IMG/VR virus record: IMGVR_UViG_3300007960_003955
Span: 1 to 24,424 of that record
Direction: 5' to 3' (one strand)
DNA from: a virus
Length of the DNA: 24,424 nucleotides
The position numbers and the translations under genes are program-made. Under the pieces are notes generated by a model. It was not told the origin of the DNA, did no database searches, and saw only the letters and a program-made list of their open reading frames with translations. Below are positions 3-23,515 of this stretch, in pieces. Within the stretch, counting starts at the first letter, position 1; each line of letters opens with the position of its first letter.

Positions 3-539
3 ACTGCTATTCTGATAGATGCTCTAAAGAATGCAGGTGGCGGTACGTGGTTTACGGTGGTAGAAAGAAATAGAATTGACAATCTTGCTAAGGAAAGGCA
101 GATTGTCAGGCAACAAAGAGATGAGTACGAAGGAGATAATGCTACAAAACTTCAACCGATGCTTTTCGCTGGGCTGATAGTTGAAGGTGGTATCGTAGGT
201 TACGATACAAGTTTAATGACAGGAGGTGCTGGTGCTAGGTATCTCGGAATCGGTGGTACTCATCAATATAAGAAAGACCAAGTTATAGTTTCGTTAAGAG
301 CAGTTTCGACAAATACAGGAGAAGTTATTCTTAACGTTCAAATATCGAAGACGATTTATTCTTATGGAAATGATCTTTCGGTATTTAAGTTTGTTGATGC
401 TGGCACAGATTTAGTTGAATTTGAAACTGGTATGACAGAAAACGAAGCAAACACAATGGCAGTAAAGATGGCGATAGAGGCTGCAGTCGTGGAAATGATT
501 AAGCAAGGAATAGAAAGGGATATTTGGAGGTACAAATGA
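3..539 (+). CDS. csgG: CsgG curli secretion channel, C-terminal part
   Basis: The open frame enters from outside the window; the 178 codons here are the C-terminal part of CsgG. CsgG forms the outer-membrane pore that exports curli subunits (type VIII secretion). Visible signatures are GGGTWFTVVERN followed by a LxxERQIVR stretch, then GARYLGIGGTHQY and DQVIVSLRAVSTNTGEV. These match the part of E. coli CsgG that carries the membrane-spanning hairpins, and GIERDIWRYK matches its GIDRGLW end. The protein stops soon after that point, so it lacks most of the C-terminal tail of the E. coli protein. A GTG at 57 is only an internal codon, because CsgG-like sequence continues upstream in frame. The stop overlaps the start of the next gene (ATGA). 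CsgE and CsgF are not in the window and could lie upstream. The family is clear; its presence in a phage is the odd part. Confidence 0.93.
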   Translation, partial: TAILIDALKNAGGGTWFTVVERNRIDNLAKERQIVRQQRDEYEGDNATKLQPMLFAGLIVEGGIVGYDTSLMTGGAGARYLGIGGTHQYKKDQVIVSLRAVSTNTGEVILNVQISKTIYSYGNDLSVFKFVDAGTDLVEFETGMTENEANTMAVKMAIEAAVVEMIKQGIERDIWRYK

Positions 540-1231
540 AATTAATCAAGAATTTCTTGGTTATGTTTACATTAATGATACCAGCGATTGCACACGGACA
601 GTCAACAACAAACTCGATCTACATTGAGCAGATCGGCGATGGTTCAACGATAACTATCGAACAAACGGGGAACACTAATACGATTGGTGATACTGTTTTG
701 GATATTCCATTTGATCTTAATGGAGCATCACAAAACATTACAGTAACTCAAGATGGCAACTCTAACTCACTTGATGGGTCGATTAAAGGAGCAAACATTA
801 CTGCTAGCATCGATACAACAGGTGATACAAACGATCTTGATTTTGATGTCGGAGCAACAGCTGCAAGTGGTTCTACACTTGACTTTGATGTAATAGGCAG
901 CGGCAACGATGTCGACTTTACACAGGGTTCGTTAAACTCTGCTACCAATGCTGATGTCACCGTTGGTATCACTGGTGACTTTAACACGTTTGATTCCACT
1001 ATCGAAACAGATGATGTTACAAATACATTTGCGGTTACCGGTGATTCAAATGACATGACTATTGTTCAAGATGGTTATGCCGGTAAGAACATTGACATGG
1101 ATCTTACAGGATCGACGAATACCGTAACAGTCAATCAGAAGAGCACGTTGAATGTTGATTCAATTAATCTCACGTCTACGACGAGCAACAGTACTATTAG
1201 CATTAATCAGTGCGACTCCACTGGTTGCTAA
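536..1231 (+). CDS. curlin-repeat secreted protein (CsgA/CsgB-like)
   Basis: A 231-residue protein, probably the cargo of the CsgG pore. It begins with a signal peptide (about residues 1-21, MKLIKNFLVMFTLMIPAIA). Repeats of the curlin type follow, S-x5-Q-x-G-x2-N-x5-Q. The clearest is SIYIEQIGDGSTITIEQTGN; others are NITVTQDGNSNSL, MTIVQDGYAGKN and LTGSTNTVTVNQ. Repeats in the middle drift towards T/G/D-rich versions without Gln. The protein ends in CDSTGC, a Cys pair at the extreme C-terminus. ATG 536 was chosen because GGAGG lies just upstream at 526-530 and because it overlaps the csgG stop. By analogy it would assemble as amyloid-like fibres outside the cell, but the divergent middle means a soluble secreted role is also possible. 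The last 80 bases are shared with the next gene in another frame. Confidence 0.8.
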   Translation: MKLIKNFLVMFTLMIPAIAHGQSTTNSIYIEQIGDGSTITIEQTGNTNTIGDTVLDIPFDLNGASQNITVTQDGNSNSLDGSIKGANITASIDTTGDTNDLDFDVGATAASGSTLDFDVIGSGNDVDFTQGSLNSATNADVTVGITGDFNTFDSTIETDDVTNTFAVTGDSNDMTIVQDGYAGKNIDMDLTGSTNTVTVNQKSTLNVDSINLTSTTSNSTISINQCDSTGC

Positions 1232-2225
1232 TGATATTGGTTCGGTAACACAATCAAGGGGGACTGGCGAAGTAGTTCGTAATCAAACGAAGTACAACGT
1301 CAGGCCCCAGTTACCTATTCGTCAAAACGATACAGTAAAGACAGGCAATGGTCGTGTCAGGATTACGTTTGTCGATGATTCGACCGTTAATGTTACCGAA
1401 CAGTCTCGTTTAGTTATCGATGACTTTGTTTACAATGGTAACCCATCTGCATCAAGGATGGCACTTCGGTTCGCATCTGGGACTGCTAGATTTACATCTG
1501 GTTCAGGAAGAATTGCCAAACCAAACATAGCACTCAGAACACCTTCTGCAACAATCGCTGTTCGTGGAACAGACTTTACAACAACTGTCGACGAGTTCGG
1601 TAAGAGTCTAATTATCTTATTGCCATCTGATGATGGAACGGTTGGAGAGATCACAGTTTCTAACGCAGCAGGAATTGTCGTCCTCAACCAAGCATTCCAA
1701 GCAACACTTGTTGAGACGTTTGATTCCCGACCATCGCAACCTCTAATACTCAATCTTTCATTGGATATGATCGACAACATGATCATTGTTAATCCACCCG
1801 AAGAAATAAAAGAGTATGAAATAGCAGATTCAAGAACTAATATTCTTGATCTCTCAGAACTCGATATAGATTACCTAGAATTTAAGGATCTTGAAAAAGA
1901 TGATCTAATCTTCGATCAATTGGATAAGGATCTATTGAGTGTAAACTTCTTGGAAGACTATCTCGATGATGGCGGTGGTGATTTGTCCGATTCGGTAGAT
2001 GGTGTATCGATCACGGGAACTACTTTTGGTTATAATGAAAGTACGCAGATCTATGCAATCATTGCACAGGATTCTATAAATATATCAAGGTATGTTGGTG
2101 GCACAATAAGCATCAACTTATCTAAAGATGAAGGAAAGAATATTCTTCTTAATCAAAATAAAATTATATATGATTTAAAGGTAAATGGCGGTGGATCAGA
2201 AATCATTATCACACAATCTGACTAA
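1152..2225 (+). CDS. FecR-domain exported protein
   Basis: A 357-residue protein. It starts with a convincing signal peptide (MLIQLISRLRRATVLLALIS, then ATPLVA before the likely cut). A FecR domain follows at about residues 28-190. Its hallmarks are the N-terminal G-x-V...R-x-G-x-x-x-V-V pattern, VRITFVDDSTVNVTEQSRLVI, and IALRTPSATIAVRGTDFTT. After residue 200 the chain is acidic and repetitive (DLSELDIDYLEF, LEKDDLIFDQLDKDLL). It ends in a beta-type tail finishing GGGSEIIITQSD, which faintly recalls curlin strands. Related FecR-domain proteins act as periplasmic sensors or scaffolds, and they often neighbour CHASE2 proteins (from memory). The start lies inside the curlin gene, and the signal peptide is encoded entirely in that overlap; this supports ATG 1152. 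Probably co-translated with the cyclase that overlaps its 3' end by 41 bases. Confidence 0.85.
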   Translation: MLIQLISRLRRATVLLALISATPLVANDIGSVTQSRGTGEVVRNQTKYNVRPQLPIRQNDTVKTGNGRVRITFVDDSTVNVTEQSRLVIDDFVYNGNPSASRMALRFASGTARFTSGSGRIAKPNIALRTPSATIAVRGTDFTTTVDEFGKSLIILLPSDDGTVGEITVSNAAGIVVLNQAFQATLVETFDSRPSQPLILNLSLDMIDNMIIVNPPEEIKEYEIADSRTNILDLSELDIDYLEFKDLEKDDLIFDQLDKDLLSVNFLEDYLDDGGGDLSDSVDGVSITGTTFGYNESTQIYAIIAQDSINISRYVGGTISINLSKDEGKNILLNQNKIIYDLKVNGGGSEIIITQSD

Positions 2226-4257
2226 GATACTCTTATCACCATGGATGGCAGTGTTTACCTTCGCCATATTATTAATGGTGAAGATGCAAGATCCGTTTCT
2301 AGTTGAAACTGCTCGCCTGAAGTATTATGACTATATCATGCTTGATGAATCAACACAATCAGAACAGATTGTAGTCGTAAACATAGGGGAGAAAGCAATT
2401 GAAACATATGGGCAATGGCCGTTTCCAAGAGAGGTCCATGCTGAAATTATTGAGGGACTTTATGGTAGAGGGGCTGCTCTTGTTGGCAGCACTATACTTA
2501 TGCCTGAGTCTGATCGTCTGGGGACTGACGGAGTTCTTCAGAATACCCTAAGTCAGTATCCAGTTATTCTCAGTCAGACAGTTTCTAATCAATGCTCGAG
2601 AGATTCTTCGTCGATTCGTCGTACTGGTGTTGCTGTGATTGGAGACGGTCGTGCAACTGATTATCTACCACAATACCCATGCGTTCTAAGTAATATCGAT
2701 ATTCTTCAGACAGCAGCCGTCGGTGTTGGAGTAACATCGACCTTACCTGAAACTGATGGGGTCGTAAGGCGAGTTCCTCTTCTAGCACAATCATCAGACG
2801 AATACTATCCCGCATTTGCTCTAGAGATGCTGCGAGTTGCCGCAGGAGATCCCTCGTATCAAGCGAAGATAAATCAGACTGGGGTCGAAGCATTACGAAT
2901 TCCTTCATTTGAAACCATTAAAACGGATGAATATGGTCGTGTGTTTATTAATCCGAACTATCGGTTTTCTTCTGTAGAAATTGGCGAACCAATTCCTGAT
3001 CTGACTGGTAAGATAGTGATTCTTGGCGTAACTGCCGCAGGAGTTGCGAACCCTGTAGCGACTCCAGCAGGTGCGCAATATCCCCATGTCCTTCAGGCGA
3101 GTATACTTGAAACTCTGATAAATGGAGATTCTGTGTCGATTCCGAACTGGTCAGTAATTGCGGATCTTGCTGCTCTGTTGATTCTGGTTCTTTCATTAAT
3201 AGTTCTTTCGCGTTCTAAATATTCTCTCATTTATATAGCGATTCTGTTGGGTGTGTATTTTTACCTGCCTATCTATTTGTTTGCGCAAAATAACATTTTG
3301 TTCGACGTTTCGTTCAATATTTTTGCGATAACTCTGATCTACATGCATATCTATACTGTTAAGTATATCTCTGAGTATCTACAGAAGCAACAAATTAAAA
3401 AGCAATTCGGAACGTATCTCTCGCCAGATCTTGTCGCGCAACTTCAACGACAACCAGAGTTACTACAACTTGGTGGTACCGAGCAAGAACTGACGATCAT
3501 GTTTACAGACGTTCGTGGGTTTACAACTATCTCTGAACACTATGGTAAAGACGTTCAAGGACTAACGAAGATTATGAATCGTTATATGACAACTATGACA
3601 AAGGCGATTCTTGAGAACAAAGGCACACTAGATAAGTATATTGGCGACGCTCAAATGGCATTTTGGAATGCACCATTGGACGACAGACAACATGCACTTC
3701 ATGCGGTTCAAACTGCTTTTGTAATGTTAAAAGATTTGAAGGAGTTTAATGATGAAATTACTCGAGAAGGCATTCCTGCTTTCGGGATGGGCCTTGGTAT
3801 CAACACTGACACTGTTGTCGTGGGGAATATGGGTTCTGATCAACGTTTTGATTATACCTGCCTTGGTGATGGTGTTAATCTCGCGAGTCGTCTTGAGGGT
3901 CAGTCTAAACCTTACGGAGTCAAGATCGTTATTGGACCAAAAACTGCGGAATACATTCAGGACTGCTACCAAGTAATCGAACTAGATCTTATTGCAGTTA
4001 AAGGTAAAACTGAACCGACAAGAATCTTTACTGTTCTTGAAAAGAATGATATGGTATCTGAGACACAACATAAAAAGTTTTTGGAACTGTATCGTCAAGG
4101 ATCTTTTGCAGTTGCAAAAAGGTTCGCCATCTCACTCCGTACAGGGTGGAATGGCGAACTAGATGCTTACTACGAAATGATGATCGAACGTATCAACAGT
4201 ATGAAGAAAAATCCTCCTACTGATTGGGATGGAATTTATAGAGCCCAGGCCAAGTAA
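2185..4257 (+). CDS. CHASE2 transmembrane class III adenylate cyclase
   Basis: A 690-residue membrane receptor that should make cAMP from ATP. In order: one N-terminal membrane helix (about 18-36), an extracytoplasmic CHASE2 sensor domain (about 40-310, with VVVNIGEKAIETYGQWPFPR), three closely spaced membrane helices (about 320-400), a short linker containing FGTYLSPDLV, and a class III cyclase domain (about 430-610). All catalytic positions appear present. They are the metal-binding Asp442 (MFTDVRGFT) and Asp488 (YIGDAQMAFW), the substrate-binding Lys484, and the N-x3-R pair Asn565/Arg569 (VNLASRLEG). The Lys supports ATP rather than GTP as substrate. It starts inside the FecR gene behind AAAGG, and its 3' end overlaps a convergent small gene. 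A complete receptor cyclase is unusual in a phage genome. The domain calls are firm; the signal sensed is unknown. Confidence 0.92.
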   Translation: MAVDQKSLSHNLTKILLSPWMAVFTFAILLMVKMQDPFLVETARLKYYDYIMLDESTQSEQIVVVNIGEKAIETYGQWPFPREVHAEIIEGLYGRGAALVGSTILMPESDRLGTDGVLQNTLSQYPVILSQTVSNQCSRDSSSIRRTGVAVIGDGRATDYLPQYPCVLSNIDILQTAAVGVGVTSTLPETDGVVRRVPLLAQSSDEYYPAFALEMLRVAAGDPSYQAKINQTGVEALRIPSFETIKTDEYGRVFINPNYRFSSVEIGEPIPDLTGKIVILGVTAAGVANPVATPAGAQYPHVLQASILETLINGDSVSIPNWSVIADLAALLILVLSLIVLSRSKYSLIYIAILLGVYFYLPIYLFAQNNILFDVSFNIFAITLIYMHIYTVKYISEYLQKQQIKKQFGTYLSPDLVAQLQRQPELLQLGGTEQELTIMFTDVRGFTTISEHYGKDVQGLTKIMNRYMTTMTKAILENKGTLDKYIGDAQMAFWNAPLDDRQHALHAVQTAFVMLKDLKEFNDEITREGIPAFGMGLGINTDTVVVGNMGSDQRFDYTCLGDGVNLASRLEGQSKPYGVKIVIGPKTAEYIQDCYQVIELDLIAVKGKTEPTRIFTVLEKNDMVSETQHKKFLELYRQGSFAVAKRFAISLRTGWNGELDAYYEMMIERINSMKKNPPTDWDGIYRAQAK

Positions 4258-5660: not shown

Positions 5661-6234
5661 ATTTGATATTGTAATGAAATGGATGGAGTATATCCGCAAC
5701 AACCCCGAAAATGCATATCGCTTCTCGGAAAACTTCTGGCAAAGTCAGATTGATAGTAAGAAGTGGTTGCTCGAGCACATAACTGAAGAAGATCATTCCA
5801 TAGTTATCTTTGGTGGATGGTATGGCGTTCTGGCGCAATTTATTGCACAGAAATTTCCTGATTCTTATATCGTAAACACTGACATCGATCCAGAATGTGA
5901 ACATGTGTTCAATCAGATCAATACCAATTCAGATATCCGATTTAGAACGCACGATATGGAAGATGGTATGCCAGTTGCATGCAGTAATCCCAAACTGGTT
6001 ATTAATACCAGCACGGAACATGTCAGTCAATCGAAATATAATTCTTGGTGGCACTCCATTCCAGACGGAACTAAATATATTGTGCAAGGCAATAATCTTG
6101 TTAATCCTGAACATATTCGTCTTGCGGATAATCTAGAAATGTTCTTGGATATTAACAAAGTCAAAGATCCACTTTATGCAGGAATGTTGGGGTGTGGTCA
6201 TTTTTATAGATTTATGGCAGTGGGCATTAAATGA
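5653..6234 (+). CDS. class I SAM methyltransferase-like protein
   Basis: A 193-residue protein with a Rossmann-like layout. There is a hydrophobic strand then a glycine loop (IVIFGGWYGVLAQF, loop near residues 54-58), a second strand ending in acidic residues (YIVNTDIDPE, Asp77/Asp79), then DMEDGMP and LVINTSTEHVS, as in class I S-adenosylmethionine methyltransferases. The glycine loop is an imperfect motif I, so the substrate and even activity are uncertain. It begins at GTG 5653, overlapping the previous stop by eight bases; ATG 5674 is an alternative. Its stop overlaps the radical SAM gene start (ATGA), so the two are likely co-translated and may act on the same substrate. Confidence 0.65.
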   Translation: MVEFDIVMKWMEYIRNNPENAYRFSENFWQSQIDSKKWLLEHITEEDHSIVIFGGWYGVLAQFIAQKFPDSYIVNTDIDPECEHVFNQINTNSDIRFRTHDMEDGMPVACSNPKLVINTSTEHVSQSKYNSWWHSIPDGTKYIVQGNNLVNPEHIRLADNLEMFLDINKVKDPLYAGMLGCGHFYRFMAVGIK

Positions 6235-7631
6235 CAGATCATGTTGACAGAATACGCGATGTAATTGACATAACAAATAAGATTAGTCCAACGTTCTGTT
6301 TTGCTAAGTGGTATCACACATCCATCTACATGTATTCGGGGCAAACACATAGTTGTTACCACCCTCGACCGCACAATATATCGACGGAAGAAATTAAGAC
6401 CAATCCTTCTGCTCTTCACAACACGCTGATTAAAAAGAAAGAGCGAGCAGAAATGCTTGTCGGCGAGAAACCATCTGGTTGTCAATATTGTTGGAACGTT
6501 GAGAGTCTCGGAAGCGACCATGTTTCAGATAGAATGATTCGCAATGCATCTATTATAACTGATGAAAGACACAAAGAAATCCTAGACAATCGTTGGGACT
6601 TTGATGTTCAACCTGAATACATTGAAGTAGCATTTCACAATGAATGTAATTTCAAATGCGGTTATTGCCATCCAGCAGTAAGCAGCAGTTTCTATAACGA
6701 GATCAAAAAATTTGGACCATATAACACTGTTAAAAATCATGCACTCAACGTAGACTACATCAAGAAACAAAATGAAGATGACAATCCCTACGTAAAGGCA
6801 TGGTGGGAATGGTGGCCTGAAGTCTCGAAGAACCTCAACATTCTACGCATCACAGGCGGAGAACCGCTACTTCATAAAAGCACTTGGCGTCTTTTTGATG
6901 ATCTTCGCGCAGATCCCAAACCACATCTAGAAATTAATATCAACTCCAATCTTGGCGTTAAATCATCGCTTGTTCAAAAATTAGCAGACAATGTTGTCGA
7001 TTTAACCGAGAACAATACGATTCGTAGTTTCAAGTTGTTTACATCAGTAGATACTTGGGGTGCTAGAGCAGAATATCTGCGGACTGGTTTGGATATAGAA
7101 TTATTTGAAAAGAACATAGATATCTTTGTCAGAAATGCCAGAACTCATCTGGCGTTTATGTGCACGTTTAATATTCTCAGCGTAACTTCGTTTACAGATT
7201 TCTTGAAGAAAATCTTAATTATGCGCAGACAATATGACCATGTTATTCCTATACTGAATCCACGCGAACCAAACATGAGAAAGATTCGGTTTGACACACC
7301 ATATCTCAAAGAACCATTGCAGTATGACATGCACTTGTTACCGAAGAAACACTTTCTAAAGTATTTTGATCAAACATTAAAGTTTATTCAAGACAATTTA
7401 GATGATGCTGACACAACAAAGTTCTCCAATCTAGAGTATGAGAGATTCCGTCGTGTTCGAGACTACTTTGCTACTGTTCAATATGAACCTCAGAAAGTAA
7501 AGGAAGGTCGAGCGGACTTCTACAACTGGTTTACCGAATATGATCGTCGACGCAATACCAACTTCCTAGAAACTTTCCCTGATATGGAAGAATTCTGGAA
7601 GTTGTGTAAGAAATCCGCAGAGGAAAAGTAA
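6231..7631 (+). CDS. radical SAM protein with N-terminal Cys quartet (copy 1)
   Basis: A 466-residue radical SAM enzyme. The cluster motif CNFKCGYC gives Cys139, Cys143 and Cys146, and GGEPLL at 209-214 is the usual SAM-binding motif. The N-terminal 90 residues hold four further cysteines, Cys23, Cys42 (THSCYHP), Cys84 and Cys87 (GCQYCW). They probably bind a second iron-sulfur cluster, the twitch-type arrangement I associate with marine phage radical SAM proteins. The substrate is unknown. Neighbours are a methyltransferase-like protein, an epimerase and a glycosyltransferase, so a sugar or surface molecule is a reasonable guess. The stop overlaps the epimerase start (TAATG). A second copy with the same N-terminal Cys spacing lies at 11957-13459. 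Confidence 0.9.
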   Translation: MTDHVDRIRDVIDITNKISPTFCFAKWYHTSIYMYSGQTHSCYHPRPHNISTEEIKTNPSALHNTLIKKKERAEMLVGEKPSGCQYCWNVESLGSDHVSDRMIRNASIITDERHKEILDNRWDFDVQPEYIEVAFHNECNFKCGYCHPAVSSSFYNEIKKFGPYNTVKNHALNVDYIKKQNEDDNPYVKAWWEWWPEVSKNLNILRITGGEPLLHKSTWRLFDDLRADPKPHLEININSNLGVKSSLVQKLADNVVDLTENNTIRSFKLFTSVDTWGARAEYLRTGLDIELFEKNIDIFVRNARTHLAFMCTFNILSVTSFTDFLKKILIMRRQYDHVIPILNPREPNMRKIRFDTPYLKEPLQYDMHLLPKKHFLKYFDQTLKFIQDNLDDADTTKFSNLEYERFRRVRDYFATVQYEPQKVKEGRADFYNWFTEYDRRRNTNFLETFPDMEEFWKLCKKSAEEK

Positions 7632-11956: not shown

Positions 11957-13459
11957 ATGAGTATATACAATGATTCTGCGGATGTCGCAGAGAACCAATT
12001 GAACAGAATTTCTAAATCCATGTGTTACGCTAAATGGGCGCAGGTATCTATGCACCTGACCAATGGTATGACACATAGTTGCTACCACCCACCCACGCAC
12101 AAAATAGACGTTCTAGAACTTGAGAAAAACCCATCTGCGCTACACAACACCAAACAGAAAAAAGAAGAACGTCGGCAGATGTTGAAGGGCGAGCGACCAA
12201 AGGGTTGTTCGTATTGCTGGAAAATCGAGGATGCTGGTGCGAGAAGCGACAGAATTTACAGGTCGGGTGAATACTGGGCACAAAATGCTCGCAAAGACAT
12301 CATAGAATCACTTGATACTGGTAATGTTACTCCGCGATATGTCGAGGTCAATTTTAATCAGGCATGCAATTTTAAGTGTATGTACTGTTCTCCTCATCTG
12401 AGCACAAGTTGGGAAACTGAAATTAATCAGCATGGACCAATTAAGATTCTAGACGCTGATGGTAATGTTTCAGAACACAATAACATACAGTATCTGACCG
12501 AACAGGGGTTAATGCCGCTGAAGGTTTCTCAAAAGGATAATCCTTATCTCACTGCATTCTGGCGCTGGTGGCCTGAGTTGTATAAGAAACTCGAAGTCTT
12601 TAGAATGACGGGTGGCGAACCGTTGATGGATGCGAATACCTTCAAAGTCTTGGATTATATCCACGAAAATCCGAATGCTTGGTTGGAAGTTAGCGTAACA
12701 TCTAATATGTGTCCACCTGACCAAAAGTTAATGGATAGTTTCATACAGAAGTTAAAGAAACTCGAAGAAATCCAAATATGGAAAGACGACGAACGGTTCA
12801 ATCCTGGATCGGGTAATCACTGGTATGTAAACATGGCATTGAAAAATTTCTCCATGTTTGTCAGTCTCGATTCAGTAGGTTCTCAGGCAGAGTATATCAG
12901 AACGGGATTAGACTATCAGGTTATGCAAGAAAACGTAGAACGAGTTCTATCAGAAACTTGCAACACCAATGTAACTTTTATCAACACGTTTAATATTCTT
13001 TCGGTGTTTGGGGTAACGGATTATCTCAAATATGTTTTATCTTTGCGAAAGAAATACTCCAGAGACAATCAAGGTATTAAGAAGATACCTATATACGACA
13101 AATACAATACGCATCCAGATTTTGAAGTGCATTCTAGGCAGCGGATCTGGTTTGATATTCCGTTGTTGCGATATCCAGACTGGATGGCAATAAATAAATT
13201 GCCGCAAGAGTTTGATAAATACTTAGAAGAAGCGATTCAGTACATGCGCGAAAACCCAGAAACAGGCGATTTCGTTGGATTTTATGATTTTGAAATAGAT
13301 AAAGTGCAACGAAACTTAGATTGGATGCGCGAACATAGGGATGTATCTGATCAGCACAGAAAGAATATACGAATGCATTTTGAGCAGCATGATTCTAGAA
13401 GAAACACAAATTATCGAGAAATTTTTCCTGAATTGATAGGATATCTTAGTAATGATTGA
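11957..13459 (+). CDS. radical SAM protein with N-terminal Cys quartet (copy 2)
   Basis: A 500-residue paralogue of the protein at 6231-7631. The cluster motif ACNFKCMYC gives Cys137, Cys141 and Cys144; TGGEPLMD follows with GGEP at 219-222. The N-terminal cysteines fall at residues 23, 42, 84 and 87, exactly as in copy 1, with the shared strings THSCYHP and NPSALHNT. Differences lie in an insert before GGEP (about 160-190) and in the C-terminal third. The two enzymes probably do the same chemistry on different substrates. No clear ribosome site precedes ATG 11957, so it likely depends on coupling to the 34-residue frame. It is followed by SGNH copy C. Confidence 0.9.
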   Translation: MSIYNDSADVAENQLNRISKSMCYAKWAQVSMHLTNGMTHSCYHPPTHKIDVLELEKNPSALHNTKQKKEERRQMLKGERPKGCSYCWKIEDAGARSDRIYRSGEYWAQNARKDIIESLDTGNVTPRYVEVNFNQACNFKCMYCSPHLSTSWETEINQHGPIKILDADGNVSEHNNIQYLTEQGLMPLKVSQKDNPYLTAFWRWWPELYKKLEVFRMTGGEPLMDANTFKVLDYIHENPNAWLEVSVTSNMCPPDQKLMDSFIQKLKKLEEIQIWKDDERFNPGSGNHWYVNMALKNFSMFVSLDSVGSQAEYIRTGLDYQVMQENVERVLSETCNTNVTFINTFNILSVFGVTDYLKYVLSLRKKYSRDNQGIKKIPIYDKYNTHPDFEVHSRQRIWFDIPLLRYPDWMAINKLPQEFDKYLEEAIQYMRENPETGDFVGFYDFEIDKVQRNLDWMREHRDVSDQHRKNIRMHFEQHDSRRNTNYREIFPELIGYLSND

Positions 13460-19093: not shown

Positions 19094-19761
19094 TTTTCGT
19101 CGGACATGACTCCAGAGAACAGGAAGCATTTGATGTTTGTAAGTTCTCAGTTGAATCTAGAAGCAATCTTAAAGTTTATAAACTCTCCAGCGCAGATATC
19201 CCAGAGTATTCTCGGAATTTTGGAGAACCGCAGTCGACTGATTTTACATTCACACGATTTTGGGTTCCCTATCTGTCAGGATACAAAGGATTTTCTATTT
19301 TTTGTGATTGCGATTTTCTATTCTTAGAAGATCCCAATGAGTTGATTAAGATCGCGAAGATGGATCCGACAAAGGCAGTTTGGGTGGCGCAGCACCCAAC
19401 TTATATTCCTAAGTCTGCATTAAAGATGGACAATATTTCTCAAAATTCTTATGAAATGAAAAACTGGTCGAGTTTGATGGTCTTCAATAACGAACACTAT
19501 GATTGTTCCAAACTGACACCCGAATGGTTAAACAATCATCCAAGGGGTATTGATTTTCATAAGTTTAATTGGACTGATGCAAATAACATCGGAAGTATTC
19601 CTTTAGACTGGAATTGCCTCGATGGATATTATCATCTAGAAAATCCAAAGGCGATTCATTACACAGATGGTGGACCATGGTTCGAAGATTATCGAGAGAC
19701 ATTTTATTCTGATTTATGGTATAAAGAGCGAAAAAAGAGCTTGACATTAGAGAAAAAATAA
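19090..19761 (+). CDS. GT-A glycosyltransferase (GT8-like)
   Basis: A 223-residue GT-A fold transferase. It starts with IFVGHDSREQEAFDVCKFSV, a characteristic N-terminal donor-binding strand and helix. The metal-binding DxD is in SIFCDCDFLFLED (Asp73, Asp75). NWSSLMVFNN and a later DWNCLDGYYHLENPKAIHYT match the acceptor side and the C-terminal His of GT8-type and similar phage enzymes. It would use a nucleotide sugar with Mn2+. It overlaps the previous transferase (ATGA), so the two may add successive sugars. Its last codons and stop lie within the first 60-bp direct repeat. Confidence 0.82.
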   Translation: MIFVGHDSREQEAFDVCKFSVESRSNLKVYKLSSADIPEYSRNFGEPQSTDFTFTRFWVPYLSGYKGFSIFCDCDFLFLEDPNELIKIAKMDPTKAVWVAQHPTYIPKSALKMDNISQNSYEMKNWSSLMVFNNEHYDCSKLTPEWLNNHPRGIDFHKFNWTDANNIGSIPLDWNCLDGYYHLENPKAIHYTDGGPWFEDYRETFYSDLWYKERKKSLTLEKK

Positions 19762-19812
19762 AGTATAAATAATCTATCAGTTGATGACAATCAACAATAA
19801 AAACGAAGTAGA
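19753..19812 (+). repeat. 60-bp direct repeat, copy 1
   Basis: This segment matches 20454-20513 at 57 of 60 positions by eye, offset 701 bases. It begins in the last two codons plus stop of the glycosyltransferase (AAAAAATAA), includes TATAAATA and a GTTGAT-GACA-ATCAAC hairpin, and ends at the methyltransferase ATG. In copy 2 the same sequence forms the upstream part of the tmRNA gene. Copy 1 therefore looks like a truncated tmRNA 5' flank that now acts as leader for the inserted gene. Confidence 0.93.
19764..19771 (+). promoter_or_regulatory. T4-type late promoter before the methyltransferase
   Basis: TATAAATA, the T4 late -10 consensus, lies in an intergenic space with no matching -35. It is 40 bases before the methyltransferase ATG. 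The gp33-like co-activator gene in the same window supports use of such promoters. The same octamer occurs in the second repeat. Confidence 0.68.
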
Positions 19813-20462
19813 TGACTGAAATGAATTGTTCTATATGTAAATCTACCAGTTTTACAGACTTTAACAATCGTATTAACGCACGATGTACAAGATGTGGTAG
19901 TCTAGAAAGACACAGAGCAGTTTATACTGTATTAGAAAATAAAAAAATTATTAATTCAACATCAAACATTTTGCACTTAGCACCGGAACCATGTTTAGTA
20001 AACATTATTAAAAAAATAGTTAAAAATAAAAACTATGTCTTAGCTGATACTAACATAGATCATTATAAAAGCGCATTTGATTTAGACTGTGTAAAATTAG
20101 ACTTAGATGAAGAATTACAGTTTGATTCAAACGCATTTGATTTAGTTCTGCATAACCATGTGTTAGAGCATTTAACAGGTAATCATATAGATCATCTAAA
20201 CGAAATGATTAGAATTACGAAGACTGGTGGTTATGTTATTTTTACTATCCCGTTTTATAAACATATAAAACACACTATTTGTGGAGGAGAATTATTATCC
20301 TCTGACGCAGAGAGAAAAAAAATATTTGGACAAGAAGATCACTATAAAGTCTTTGGAAAAGACTTCCTTTATCATTTATCTAATCTAAATAGTGTCAATT
20401 ATGAAACCGTATTGCTAGATGAATACTCAAGTATTAACACTGTTTTTATACTTAAAAAATAA
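19812..20462 (+). CDS. SAM methyltransferase with N-terminal zinc ribbon
   Basis: A 216-residue protein. A zinc ribbon (Cys6, Cys9, Cys25, Cys28) is followed by GSLERHRAVY. A class I methyltransferase domain follows: ILHLAPEPCL in the motif I position, LADTNID as motif II, FDLVLHNHVLEHL as motif IV, then TKTGGYVIFTIPF. This arrangement resembles methyltransferases found in surface-polysaccharide clusters. The gene is much poorer in G+C than its neighbours: the 120 bases from 19921 to 20040 contain only 25 G or C. That base use, together with the flanking 60-bp repeats, marks it as a recent arrival. ATG 19812 is created at the repeat border (GATG here, GACG in copy 2); ATG 19821 is an alternative. 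It ends in LKK-stop within the second repeat. Confidence 0.83.
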   Translation: MTEMNCSICKSTSFTDFNNRINARCTRCGSLERHRAVYTVLENKKIINSTSNILHLAPEPCLVNIIKKIVKNKNYVLADTNIDHYKSAFDLDCVKLDLDEELQFDSNAFDLVLHNHVLEHLTGNHIDHLNEMIRITKTGGYVIFTIPFYKHIKHTICGGELLSSDAERKKIFGQEDHYKVFGKDFLYHLSNLNSVNYETVLLDEYSSINTVFILKK

Positions 20463-20513
20463 AGTATAAATAAAATATCAGTTGATGACAATCAACAATA
20501 AAAACGGAGTAGA
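20454..20513 (+). repeat. 60-bp direct repeat, copy 2 (tmRNA 5' flank)
   Basis: Partner of 19753-19812 with three substitutions. It covers the last codons of the methyltransferase, the TATAAATA box, the GTTGAT-GACA-ATCAAC hairpin and the bases leading into the tmRNA T arm. Similarity stops exactly where the T stem starts, so only the upstream half of the acceptor piece is duplicated. Confidence 0.93.
20465..20472 (+). promoter_or_regulatory. T4-type late promoter for the tmRNA gene
   Basis: TATAAATA about 40 bases before the T arm of the tmRNA. A start point near 20480 would give a precursor that begins with the hairpin and runs through the acceptor piece, intervening segment and coding piece. 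It implies late expression of the RNA. Confidence 0.7.
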
Positions 20514-20542
20514 CGGGGGTTCGAATCCCCCCACCTCCACCA

Positions 20543-20646
20543 TAGATGCATCCGCCAATCAATACATATATGCGGAGTATCCATGGTCACCTTCCGACGG
20601 GTTAGATAGCGGGTTGCAAACTGCTGTCGTTGGGTGCATCTATGAT
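20543..20646 (+). other. intervening segment of the tmRNA precursor
   Basis: These 104 bases separate the acceptor CCA from the coding-piece 5' end. They are closed by a ten-pair stem, CATAGATGCA (20541-20550, which includes the CA of CCA) with TGCATCTATG (20635-20644), that would stack on the acceptor stem. An inner CCGC/GCGG hairpin is also present. In two-piece tmRNAs this segment is cut out by RNase P and 3' processing enzymes. Confidence 0.88.
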
Positions 20647-20727
20647 GGGGGTGTTACTGGGAATCGATACACGTGGAATAGGGCGGTTCGAGACTGATTG
20701 CTTGGCAAAGTGCCACTAAACATAAAT

Positions 20728-20766
20728 GCAAACGATAATAACGTTTCATTTGCTCTAGCAGCTTAA
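20728..20766 (+). other. tmRNA tag reading frame (ANDNNVSFALAA)
   Basis: The resume codon is GCA and the frame reads ANDNNVSFALAA then TAA. With the alanine carried by the tmRNA itself, the tag would be AANDNNVSFALAA. The start matches the AND of E. coli and many alphaproteobacterial tags, and the ALAA end is the usual ClpXP/ClpAP recognition end. CATAAAT directly before GCA stands in for the conserved resume-setting sequence. Confidence 0.93.
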
Positions 20767-20879
20767 GCTAGCATTGGGTTCCGTGGGGTTTCCTAGAAAC
20801 AGAAAACCCCACATTTTGTTTTCAGTGTGGGGAGTCACTGACTAATAACCTCTCGAGTACAACAATAAGAGTAAAACTA

Positions 20880-21404
20880 ATGACGCAATTAAAGAAACCG
20901 ATTGTATTCGTAATTTCTTTACTTGGGATTTCATTATTATCTACCGCGAATATTTCTTTTGCTAGTGAGAGACGACCAACTCCGAATGATGTAGTCGTCG
21001 TCCAAGTTCCTCCTGTTGATCAACGGGAACTTAAATGCCTTGCTGACAATATCTATTACGAGTCTAGAGGCGAATCTCAAAATGGTAAAATTGCAGTTGC
21101 TGGTGTGACACTCAATAGAGTGTCAAGCAACAAATTCCCAGAAAATATATGTTCTGTCGTATACCAGAGAACTCGCAGTACTTGCCAGTTCTCATGGACT
21201 TGTTCTCGTAAACGCAAACCTAATCCTGTTGCTTACGAAGAATCGTTCAAGATCGCTGAAAAAGTATTGACAGAAGAGATAGATCATAGTAATATAATTG
21301 GTGACAACGTAATGTGGTATCATGCGGATTATGTGAATCCTAGATGGTACAACCTAAGAAAAGTGACTAAGATCGGTAGGCATATTTTCTATCGGCAAAA
21401 ATAA
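20880..21404 (+). CDS. SleB/CwlJ-type cell wall hydrolase
   Basis: A 174-residue exported protein. The signal peptide covers about residues 1-28 (KKPIVFVISLLGISLLSTA, cut near SFA). A Hydrolase_2 domain follows with CLADNIYYESRGES (likely catalytic Glu61), IAVAGVTLNRV, FPENICSVVYQ and CQFSWTC, ending with VMWYHADYVNPRW and GRHIFY. The family cleaves peptidoglycan, probably as a lytic transglycosylase-type enzyme. In a phage it likely serves lysis or wall passage. The signal peptide means it could reach the periplasm without a holin. It lies just after the tmRNA; a weak AAGAG precedes its ATG. Confidence 0.92.
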   Translation: MTQLKKPIVFVISLLGISLLSTANISFASERRPTPNDVVVVQVPPVDQRELKCLADNIYYESRGESQNGKIAVAGVTLNRVSSNKFPENICSVVYQRTRSTCQFSWTCSRKRKPNPVAYEESFKIAEKVLTEEIDHSNIIGDNVMWYHADYVNPRWYNLRKVTKIGRHIFYRQK

Positions 21405-22652: not shown

Positions 22653-22928
22653 GTGGAAGACTTATTTTTTATCAATATAGAAGAAACAGAACTTGATATG
22701 AGAAGAAAGAAATTCAAGACTGCGAATGAATTTTCAATTCATATCGAGAAACTTGCCAAAGAATATAATTTACCAGTAATGGATGTTTTGGTGGATTATT
22801 GTCAGAAAGAGGAGATTGAGTTTGAATCAGTTTCCTCGATGATTAGTACTTCGTTGAAGGATAAACTTCAAGCGGAAGCGATTCGTCTTCACTTAATCAA
22901 AGGTAGCAATGAGAGGTTGCCGATCTGA
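22653..22928 (+). CDS. 33: gp33-like late transcription co-activator
   Basis: A 91-residue protein resembling T4 gp33. That protein binds the host polymerase beta flap and links it to the sliding clamp for late transcription. The matching part is the C-terminal two-thirds: IEKLAKEYNLPVMDVLVDYC and LKDKLQAEAIRLHLIKG against T4 IEKMVEEFGMSYLEA... and IIEKIQSEAIDENLL (recalled from memory). Gene order 33-59-32 also matches T4. It starts at GTG 22653. The stop overlaps the gp59 start (TGATG). The clamp-binding C-terminal hydrophobic end of T4 gp33 is only weakly matched by NERLPI. Confidence 0.78.
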   Translation: MEDLFFINIEETELDMRRKKFKTANEFSIHIEKLAKEYNLPVMDVLVDYCQKEEIEFESVSSMISTSLKDKLQAEAIRLHLIKGSNERLPI

Positions 22929-23515
22929 TGGATCCTTATGAGGTTTATAGATTATACCTCGCTCTTCGGTTGCACTTTACCAATGAGAAATATGATATAA
23001 CCAAGACGCGAGGTGGTGTTAGACCAAGCAGACAAGCATTCTTGAAACGGAATGATCTTTTCTCCATACGCAAAATGGCAAAGACCAAAACTAAAAAAGA
23101 GATTATCGACTTCTTGGTTGCCAATTTCGTCGCGGGAAACAGATGGGGTGGGGTGTTCGACTCAGAAGCAGAACAGAATTATAAAGAATGGCAGACGAGA
23201 ATGCAGCGCCTGACTTATCAATTTAAAGAAGATCTTCAAACAATGTTCAAAGACGGTGATCCGTTTTACTTTGAAGATGGTAAACACCCAGCAATATTAA
23301 AATTGTATTTGGGTAAAAAAATTTCTATAGAATCTATTGCTATTTTGGAAAAACTAGGGTATGTTAGTTCTATAGAAAACGAGTTCTTGGCGGATGATAT
23401 TATTTGGAAAGACTTTATTCATCTGATCAAGAAATACAAGATCTTTGTTAGTGTTGACAAAGATAAATTCAATCACCTCTATTTACAGGAGAAGAACGGA
23501 GTGATGGAAAGTTAA
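22928..23515 (+). CDS. 59: gp59-like helicase loader
   Basis: A 195-residue protein matching T4 gp59, which loads the gp41 helicase onto gp32-coated forks. The N-terminus DPYEVYRLYLALRLHF..KYDITK parallels T4 SVYKLYLMIKQH..KYDVIK. FLVANFVAGNRWGGVFDSEAE parallels FISNLVANQDAWIGDISDAD, and the C-terminal half keeps the helical FKLLQ/FLAD...W pattern. It is slightly shorter than the T4 protein. It overlaps gene 33 by one base and precedes gene 32 with one small gene between, consistent with a replication operon. Confidence 0.88.
   Translation: MDPYEVYRLYLALRLHFTNEKYDITKTRGGVRPSRQAFLKRNDLFSIRKMAKTKTKKEIIDFLVANFVAGNRWGGVFDSEAEQNYKEWQTRMQRLTYQFKEDLQTMFKDGDPFYFEDGKHPAILKLYLGKKISIESIAILEKLGYVSSIENEFLADDIIWKDFIHLIKKYKIFVSVDKDKFNHLYLQEKNGVMES

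Follow-up and report, generated by a model that had tools for sequence, protein, structure and literature searches.

The question raised by this locus is whether a virus carries a functional, circularly permuted tmRNA gene, to which kind of tmRNA it belongs and when during infection it would be expressed. The window (the whole stretch of DNA analysed, 24,424 nt) is a 24.4-kb virus record with T4-type genes, including those for PhoH, an exonuclease, a gp33-type coactivator and a gp59 loader.

Identity and structure of the tmRNA gene

Reading of the sequence together with Rfam matches identified positions 20478-20812 of the plus strand as a circularly permuted two-piece tmRNA with the tag ANDNNVSFALAA, in agreement with the preliminary description. 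At gathering thresholds, RF04321 (tmRNA_permuted) matched over its full length (1-213) at 20480-20766 on the plus strand with 98.8 bits (E 2e-18), and RF01849 (alpha_tmRNA), likewise full-length, at 20442-20813 with 82.3 bits (E 3.4e-21), both above the curated bit-score thresholds of 47 and 50, respectively. The second match, which includes the proposed tag, bears out the earlier assignment to the alphaproteobacterial type. The acceptor piece precedes the spacer and the coding piece, the limits of both pieces resting on sequence reading, Rfam and the alignment of relatives:

20478..20542, plus strand: tmRNA acceptor piece
20543..20646, plus strand: intervening sequence (spacer) of 104 nt, predicted to be removed on processing
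20647..20812, plus strand: tmRNA coding piece
20728..20766, plus strand: tag reading frame ANDNNVSFALAA-stop, with a GCA resume codon and an Ala-Ala end

The acceptor piece comprises the 5' strand of P2, a local hairpin (20481-20496), the T arm, the 3' strand of the acceptor stem, an A discriminator and an encoded CCA (20540-20542). The coding piece contains the acceptor 5' strand GGGGGUG, the D-loop region, the 3' strand of P2 (GACUGA, 20692-20697), the tag frame and a 3' hairpin (20783-20812), which is followed by a T-rich run and may, together with it, act as a terminator. The gene had been placed at 20480-20855; the locus is correct, while the functional 3' end lies at about 20812. All seven pairs of the acceptor stem described earlier, G3-U70 among them, could be read between 20532-20538 (CACCUCC) and 20647-20653 (GGGGGUG). 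The stem closing the spacer is present as well, with 12 pairs (20542-20553 with 20632-20643) and not the ten originally counted. The two pieces are paired by the outer P2 (UCAGUU/GACUGA); the inner P2 has three mismatches in the register of the family, and pairing in another register (ACG/CGU plus GUA/UAC) is possible. The folding energy of the locus was 4.7 sd below that of shuffled sequences. ARAGORN, the other program suggested as a check, did not call the gene. It calls most of the relatives as permuted tmRNAs and also misses two of them (L353 and L378) which share the acceptor type of the window, CGGAGTAGACGGGGG, so its failure is probably a detection limit. As a separate observation, the spacer shares 81% identity with that of another viral locus (L103), against 72% for the coding pieces, and the spacer itself may therefore be conserved or exchanged.

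Viral relatives and known systems

Pattern and covariance-model (CM) searches yielded a first set of 94 unique viral permuted tmRNAs, and a second, hairpin-defined set comprised 70 complete tmRNAs sharing the 5' element ATCAGTTGNTGACA..CAATAA; after merging, 138 unique mature forms were parsed. In all 138 the acceptor stem is paired at seven of seven positions, with 12 pair combinations. Position 3 opposite U70 is always G and never A; U70 was given by construction, since the parser accepted only sequences with TCCACCA and six or more acceptor pairs, and this did not apply to the G. In 60 aligned members, both-side changes were compared with control columns slid by 1-3 positions, giving 66 changes versus at most 6 for the T stem, 58 versus at most 31 for the inner P2 and 110 versus at most 70 for the 3' hairpin. 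In the coding piece, the hairpin preceding the tag is supported as well as the 3' hairpin. The outer P2, whose pairing had been named as a test of the proposal, is formed in all 60 (100% paired) but invariant, hence it gives no covariation support; as noted, the inner P2 of the window is imperfect. Judged from the alignments, the 138 forms covary as would be expected of a functional tmRNA. Chance similarity or a misread tRNA was rejected on the basis of the CM scores and the covariation. The tags are diverse, with 79 types, 76 of which end in AA and 67 in LAA. Overall, the window gene is likely to be genuine and probably functional, a two-piece tmRNA of the alphaproteobacterial type carried by a T4-like (Kyanoviridae-like) aquatic phage.

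The earlier view that permuted tmRNAs have hardly been recorded in phages is not borne out by the literature: one study described a two-piece tmRNA in phage Melnitz, 53 two-piece tmRNAs among phage genomes, and one in 17 of 47 related contigs (PMC9004378, 2022), and 79 unique tmRNA sequences from bacteriophages are listed in a tmRNA database (PMC11915505, 2025). More than 130 were found in viral contigs here, and HTVC008M and Mosig carry one too. Since such genes are already published, the gene is not new in kind; it is its regulatory context that is probably unusual. A BLAST search with the tmRNA in phage records returned short T-arm/acceptor matches only.

The closest known systems are the permuted alpha-type tmRNAs of the Methylophilales phage Melnitz EXVC044M (MZ577097, 45984-46436) and the Pelagibacter phages HTVC008M and Mosig. 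Their tags differ from that of the window, being ANDNYVPVDYALAA in Melnitz, ANFNEYALAA in HTVC008M and GEDNFALAA in Mosig (ARAGORN reading). The Caulobacter-type two-piece tmRNA (RF01849/RF04321) has the same gene order, tRNA-like domain and resume codon context; the window gene, in contrast, is phage-borne, has a phage-type promoter and neighbours, and the patterns applied to species genomes did not retrieve its tag.

Promoter of the tmRNA gene

The preliminary description had placed the gene behind a phage late promoter. By motif and position, a T4-type late element does lie just upstream of the intact gene:

20465..20472, plus strand: T4-type late promoter motif TATAAATA of the intact tmRNA

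A -35 box is missing here, with GTTTTT at a spacer of 17 before TATAAATA, so that the late element stands alone. Among 91 unique viral permuted tmRNAs, 36 have TATAAATA at -18..-10 before the CM start, compared with about 0.1 expected from a background rate of 1.4e-4 per position. Of the 70 genes in the hairpin set, 62 carry a late-like octamer at -13..-11 before ATCAGTTG, 41 of them in its exact form. Motif and positional enrichment, with TATAAATA a few nucleotides before the start and a -35 box dispensable, are those of a T4-type late promoter. A purely late reading is incomplete, however, as the promoter of the relatives is a composite of sigma70 and late elements: a -35 box (at most one mismatch to TTGACA or TGTACA, at exactly 17 nt spacing) accompanies 57 of the 62 tmRNA promoters with a late-like octamer. 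At the same loci, such a box was present at 6 of 44 tmRNA-lysin intergenic TATAAATA sites and at 3 of 46 TATAAATA sites elsewhere. It is therefore the tmRNA promoter in particular that combines host-type and late-type elements. The promoter of the Melnitz tmRNA is composite too (TTGACA-N17-TATAAATA), which may explain its earlier "early" label: an early action was proposed because a sigma70 promoter precedes the gene, with recycling of host proteins as its role (PMC9004378).

Since TATAAATA is also a good sigma70 -10, the late activity rests on the motif, its position and the cases without a -35 box. The same ambiguity allows the promoter to be read as a strong sigma70 promoter of the host type, which came along when a bacterial ssrA was captured; TATAAATA would then be an incidental -10 variant and the gene early or constitutive. 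Consistent with this are the near-consensus TTGACA-N17-TATAAA in most relatives, a plain TTGACA-N17-TATAAT at several viral loci with other tags, and the early label given to the Melnitz promoter. Yet the exact eight-base motif recurs in those 41 genes of the hairpin set and has few alternatives there, a late-like motif without any -35 box has been retained in the window copy and in several relatives, and the lysin is preceded by the same late-like motif without a -35 box, all of which makes this reading rather unlikely.

Gene neighbourhood

Downstream of the tmRNA lie the following genes:

20880..21404, plus strand: cell-wall hydrolase (lysin, PF07486), conserved as downstream neighbour of the tmRNA
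22653..22928, plus strand: gp33-type late-transcription coactivator, a syntenic neighbour
22928..23515, plus strand: gp59 helicase loader, a syntenic neighbour

The linkage with the lysin was counted in the hairpin set, which had not been selected for lysins, at the 57 loci with at least 1 kb of downstream sequence; a Pfam-checked PF07486-type hydrolase follows within 1.8 kb of the tmRNA in 52 of them. In the relatives, gp33 and then gp59 usually come after this pair. TATAAATA occurs between tmRNA and lysin at 32 of the 52 lysin loci, which gives many of the lysins a separate late promoter; in the window, TATAAATA is absent from this gap. The locus is syntenic across many phages, which lends no support to a recent date for the host capture suggested earlier. 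Melnitz has the same order as the window (PhoH, PDDEXK nuclease, tmRNA, gp33, gp59), except that its lysin is not adjacent to the tmRNA. A glutamine riboswitch was matched in Melnitz (locus L220) at 1886-1934, just 3' of the tmRNA (match end at 1878) and before the downstream genes; judging from this position, it is placed to control what follows and not the tmRNA, contrary to the published wording. The window has no match to it.

Two other regions of the window were recorded. Positions 57-4257 hold a CsgG - curlin repeat - FecR - CHASE2/adenylate cyclase cassette similar to the curli/FecR/cyclase cassettes of Melnitz and HTVC008M, its CsgG being 51% identical to that of HTVC008M and 45% to that of Melnitz. 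Two radical-SAM-like proteins are encoded at 6231-7631 and 11957-13459 in a phage sugar/carbamoyltransferase-type gene cluster.

Duplication and probable insertion at the 5' end

In contrast to Melnitz, the window has a methyltransferase gene and a 60-nt duplication directly upstream of the intact tmRNA:

19741..19771, plus strand: intact composite promoter TTGACA-N17-TATAAATA of the partial copy
19753..19812, plus strand: partial copy, covering the late/-10 portion of the promoter and the initial ~35 nt of the acceptor piece
19812..20462, plus strand: lineage-specific methyltransferase (Methyltransf_11) ORF between the copies

The segments 19753-19812 and 20454-20513, which are 701 nt apart, are identical at 57 of 60 positions. 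The ORF begins at the end of the first copy and has its stop codon inside the second. An assembly artefact was ruled out, as both copies were found at about 99.8% identity in two further metagenome contigs, possibly from related samples. The partial copy is the sole orphan 5' piece among 71 sites; three other sites flagged for lacking CTCCACCA have a compensated CAGGTCCACCA acceptor and hence are not orphan pieces. The methyltransferase had no relatives in phage records that would mark it as a known phage mobile gene, and only two near-identical copies in viral contigs. A search for other 5' duplications of tmRNA genes gave one case only (L237, contig G037). There, an intact permuted tmRNA is preceded at 1.4 kb by a broken 5' copy, in which a reverse-strand HNH-like gene interrupts the T loop; this appears to be a mobile insertion into a phage tmRNA that took place independently.

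The simplest reading of the arrangement is that a gene entered the 5' end of the tmRNA and that the duplication restored a full-length tmRNA. The composite promoter at 19741..19771 is probably the ancestral tmRNA promoter. The tmRNA is intact despite the insertion, and the -35 box was kept upstream of the first copy and not beside the intact gene; insertion and duplication would therefore have changed the regulation, leaving the tmRNA with a late-only proximal promoter. Recombination between the 60-nt repeats could remove the methyltransferase again.

Alternatively, the insertion damaged the promoter and the tmRNA is a decaying, non-functional relic which ARAGORN no longer recognises. The absent ARAGORN call, the inner P2 mismatches and the lost -35 box agree with such decay; on the other hand, the acceptor stem, T arm, CCA, tag and 3' hairpin are all complete, the CGGAGTAGACGGGGG acceptor type is missed by ARAGORN in both relatives as well, and the duplication rebuilt a full-length gene, so that a relic appears quite improbable.

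Tag, SmpB and proposed function

The tag had been described as novel-looking, and it does look unusual. Its pattern, ANDN-x-V-[S/A/T]-F-ALAA, had no match in 84,980 prokaryote species genomes, and neither had a narrower pattern, both scans being run without a positive control; the two scans thus gave no host by tag. The suggested search for smpB was likewise negative: SmpB was found in none of 25 related records (the complete Melnitz, HTVC008M and Mosig genomes and 22 large contigs), with 10 of 14 controls detected, while the window is a 24-kb fragment of an incomplete genome whose own SmpB could lie outside it. Given the absence from these records with controls detected, the RNA most likely uses the SmpB of the host, as is assumed below.

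From the sequence, the structure with its covariation, the synteny, the promoter motifs and the duplication, we infer the following course of processing, charging, SmpB use, tagging and timing. The precursor would start at about 20478 and be cut by the tRNA-processing enzymes of the host, with removal of the spacer, after which the acceptor stem and P2 would hold the acceptor and coding pieces together. G3-U70 would allow charging by the host AlaRS, and host SmpB would bring the tmRNA to ribosomes that had stalled on a broken mRNA. Translation would then switch to the ANDNNVSFALAA frame and end at a normal stop, and the -LAA end of the tag suggests host proteases as the destination of the products. 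From established tmRNA biology and the promoter motifs, the main role is most likely to free ribosomes that stall when mRNA is broken in the course of infection; most relatives would do so both early and late, and the window phage late. In most relatives, the sigma70 -35/-10 and the phage late element, within a late-transcription/lysis neighbourhood, would keep the tmRNA made throughout infection. In the window phage, methyltransferase insertion and 60-nt duplication would leave the intact tmRNA beside the late element only; the composite promoter would now drive the methyltransferase, with possible read-through into the tmRNA. Tentatively, the permuted tmRNA of a family of aquatic T4-like phages can be regarded as a dedicated gene of the lysis neighbourhood, with a promoter read by both the unmodified host and the phage late polymerase for rescue and tagging during the whole infection, which became late-only in the window lineage after the duplication split the two halves.

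A different function would be interference, in which the phage tmRNA competes with that of the host and stalled products receive a phage tag with an altered protease fate. The tag type missing from all 84,980 species genomes (again, in scans without a positive control), the 79 tag types among phages and the interfering CDS-less phage tmRNA of DS6A mentioned in PMC11915505 could be taken in this sense. The ordinary AND...LAA tag ends are kept, however, as expected for host proteases, which favours ordinary tagging and makes interference improbable.

The only published proposal found on the role of permuted phage tmRNAs is an early one (PMC9004378). The motifs predict late expression as well, beside a lysin and a late-transcription coactivator; the prediction extends to many uncultured phages and also to Melnitz, which is in culture. 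No report of the composite promoter, the tmRNA-lysin pairing or a gene in the tmRNA 5' end was found in the open-licence papers searched.

Genes within tmRNA loci

Other genes appear to have settled in the tmRNA gene, either in the duplicated 5' end or in the excised spacer, which bears on the evolution of permuted tmRNA genes. Such hosting of extra, sometimes mobile, genes is shared with the group I intron form of tmRNA, some of which carry homing endonuclease genes (PMC11915505). Unlike in the intron form, the extra genes lie in the excised spacer (L369) or the duplicated 5' end (window), and no self-splicing intron was seen. Small genes in the excised spacer, including that of an HNH endonuclease, have apparently not been reported in the searchable literature. 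The 505-nt spacer of L369 encodes a 156-aa HNH endonuclease (PF01844, E 1.9e-5), comparable to the homing genes of intron-form tmRNAs. The spacers of five other loci (L129, L346, L402, L411 and L423) contain a conserved small ORF with a ribosome-binding site, MVICSCRDIRDSQYTN..CCGTC, and a CxC/CxxC motif, which runs into the coding piece; it resembles a BFD-type ferredoxin, with no Pfam match. Small ORFs were also present within the spacers of Melnitz, L287/L285, L334 and L431.
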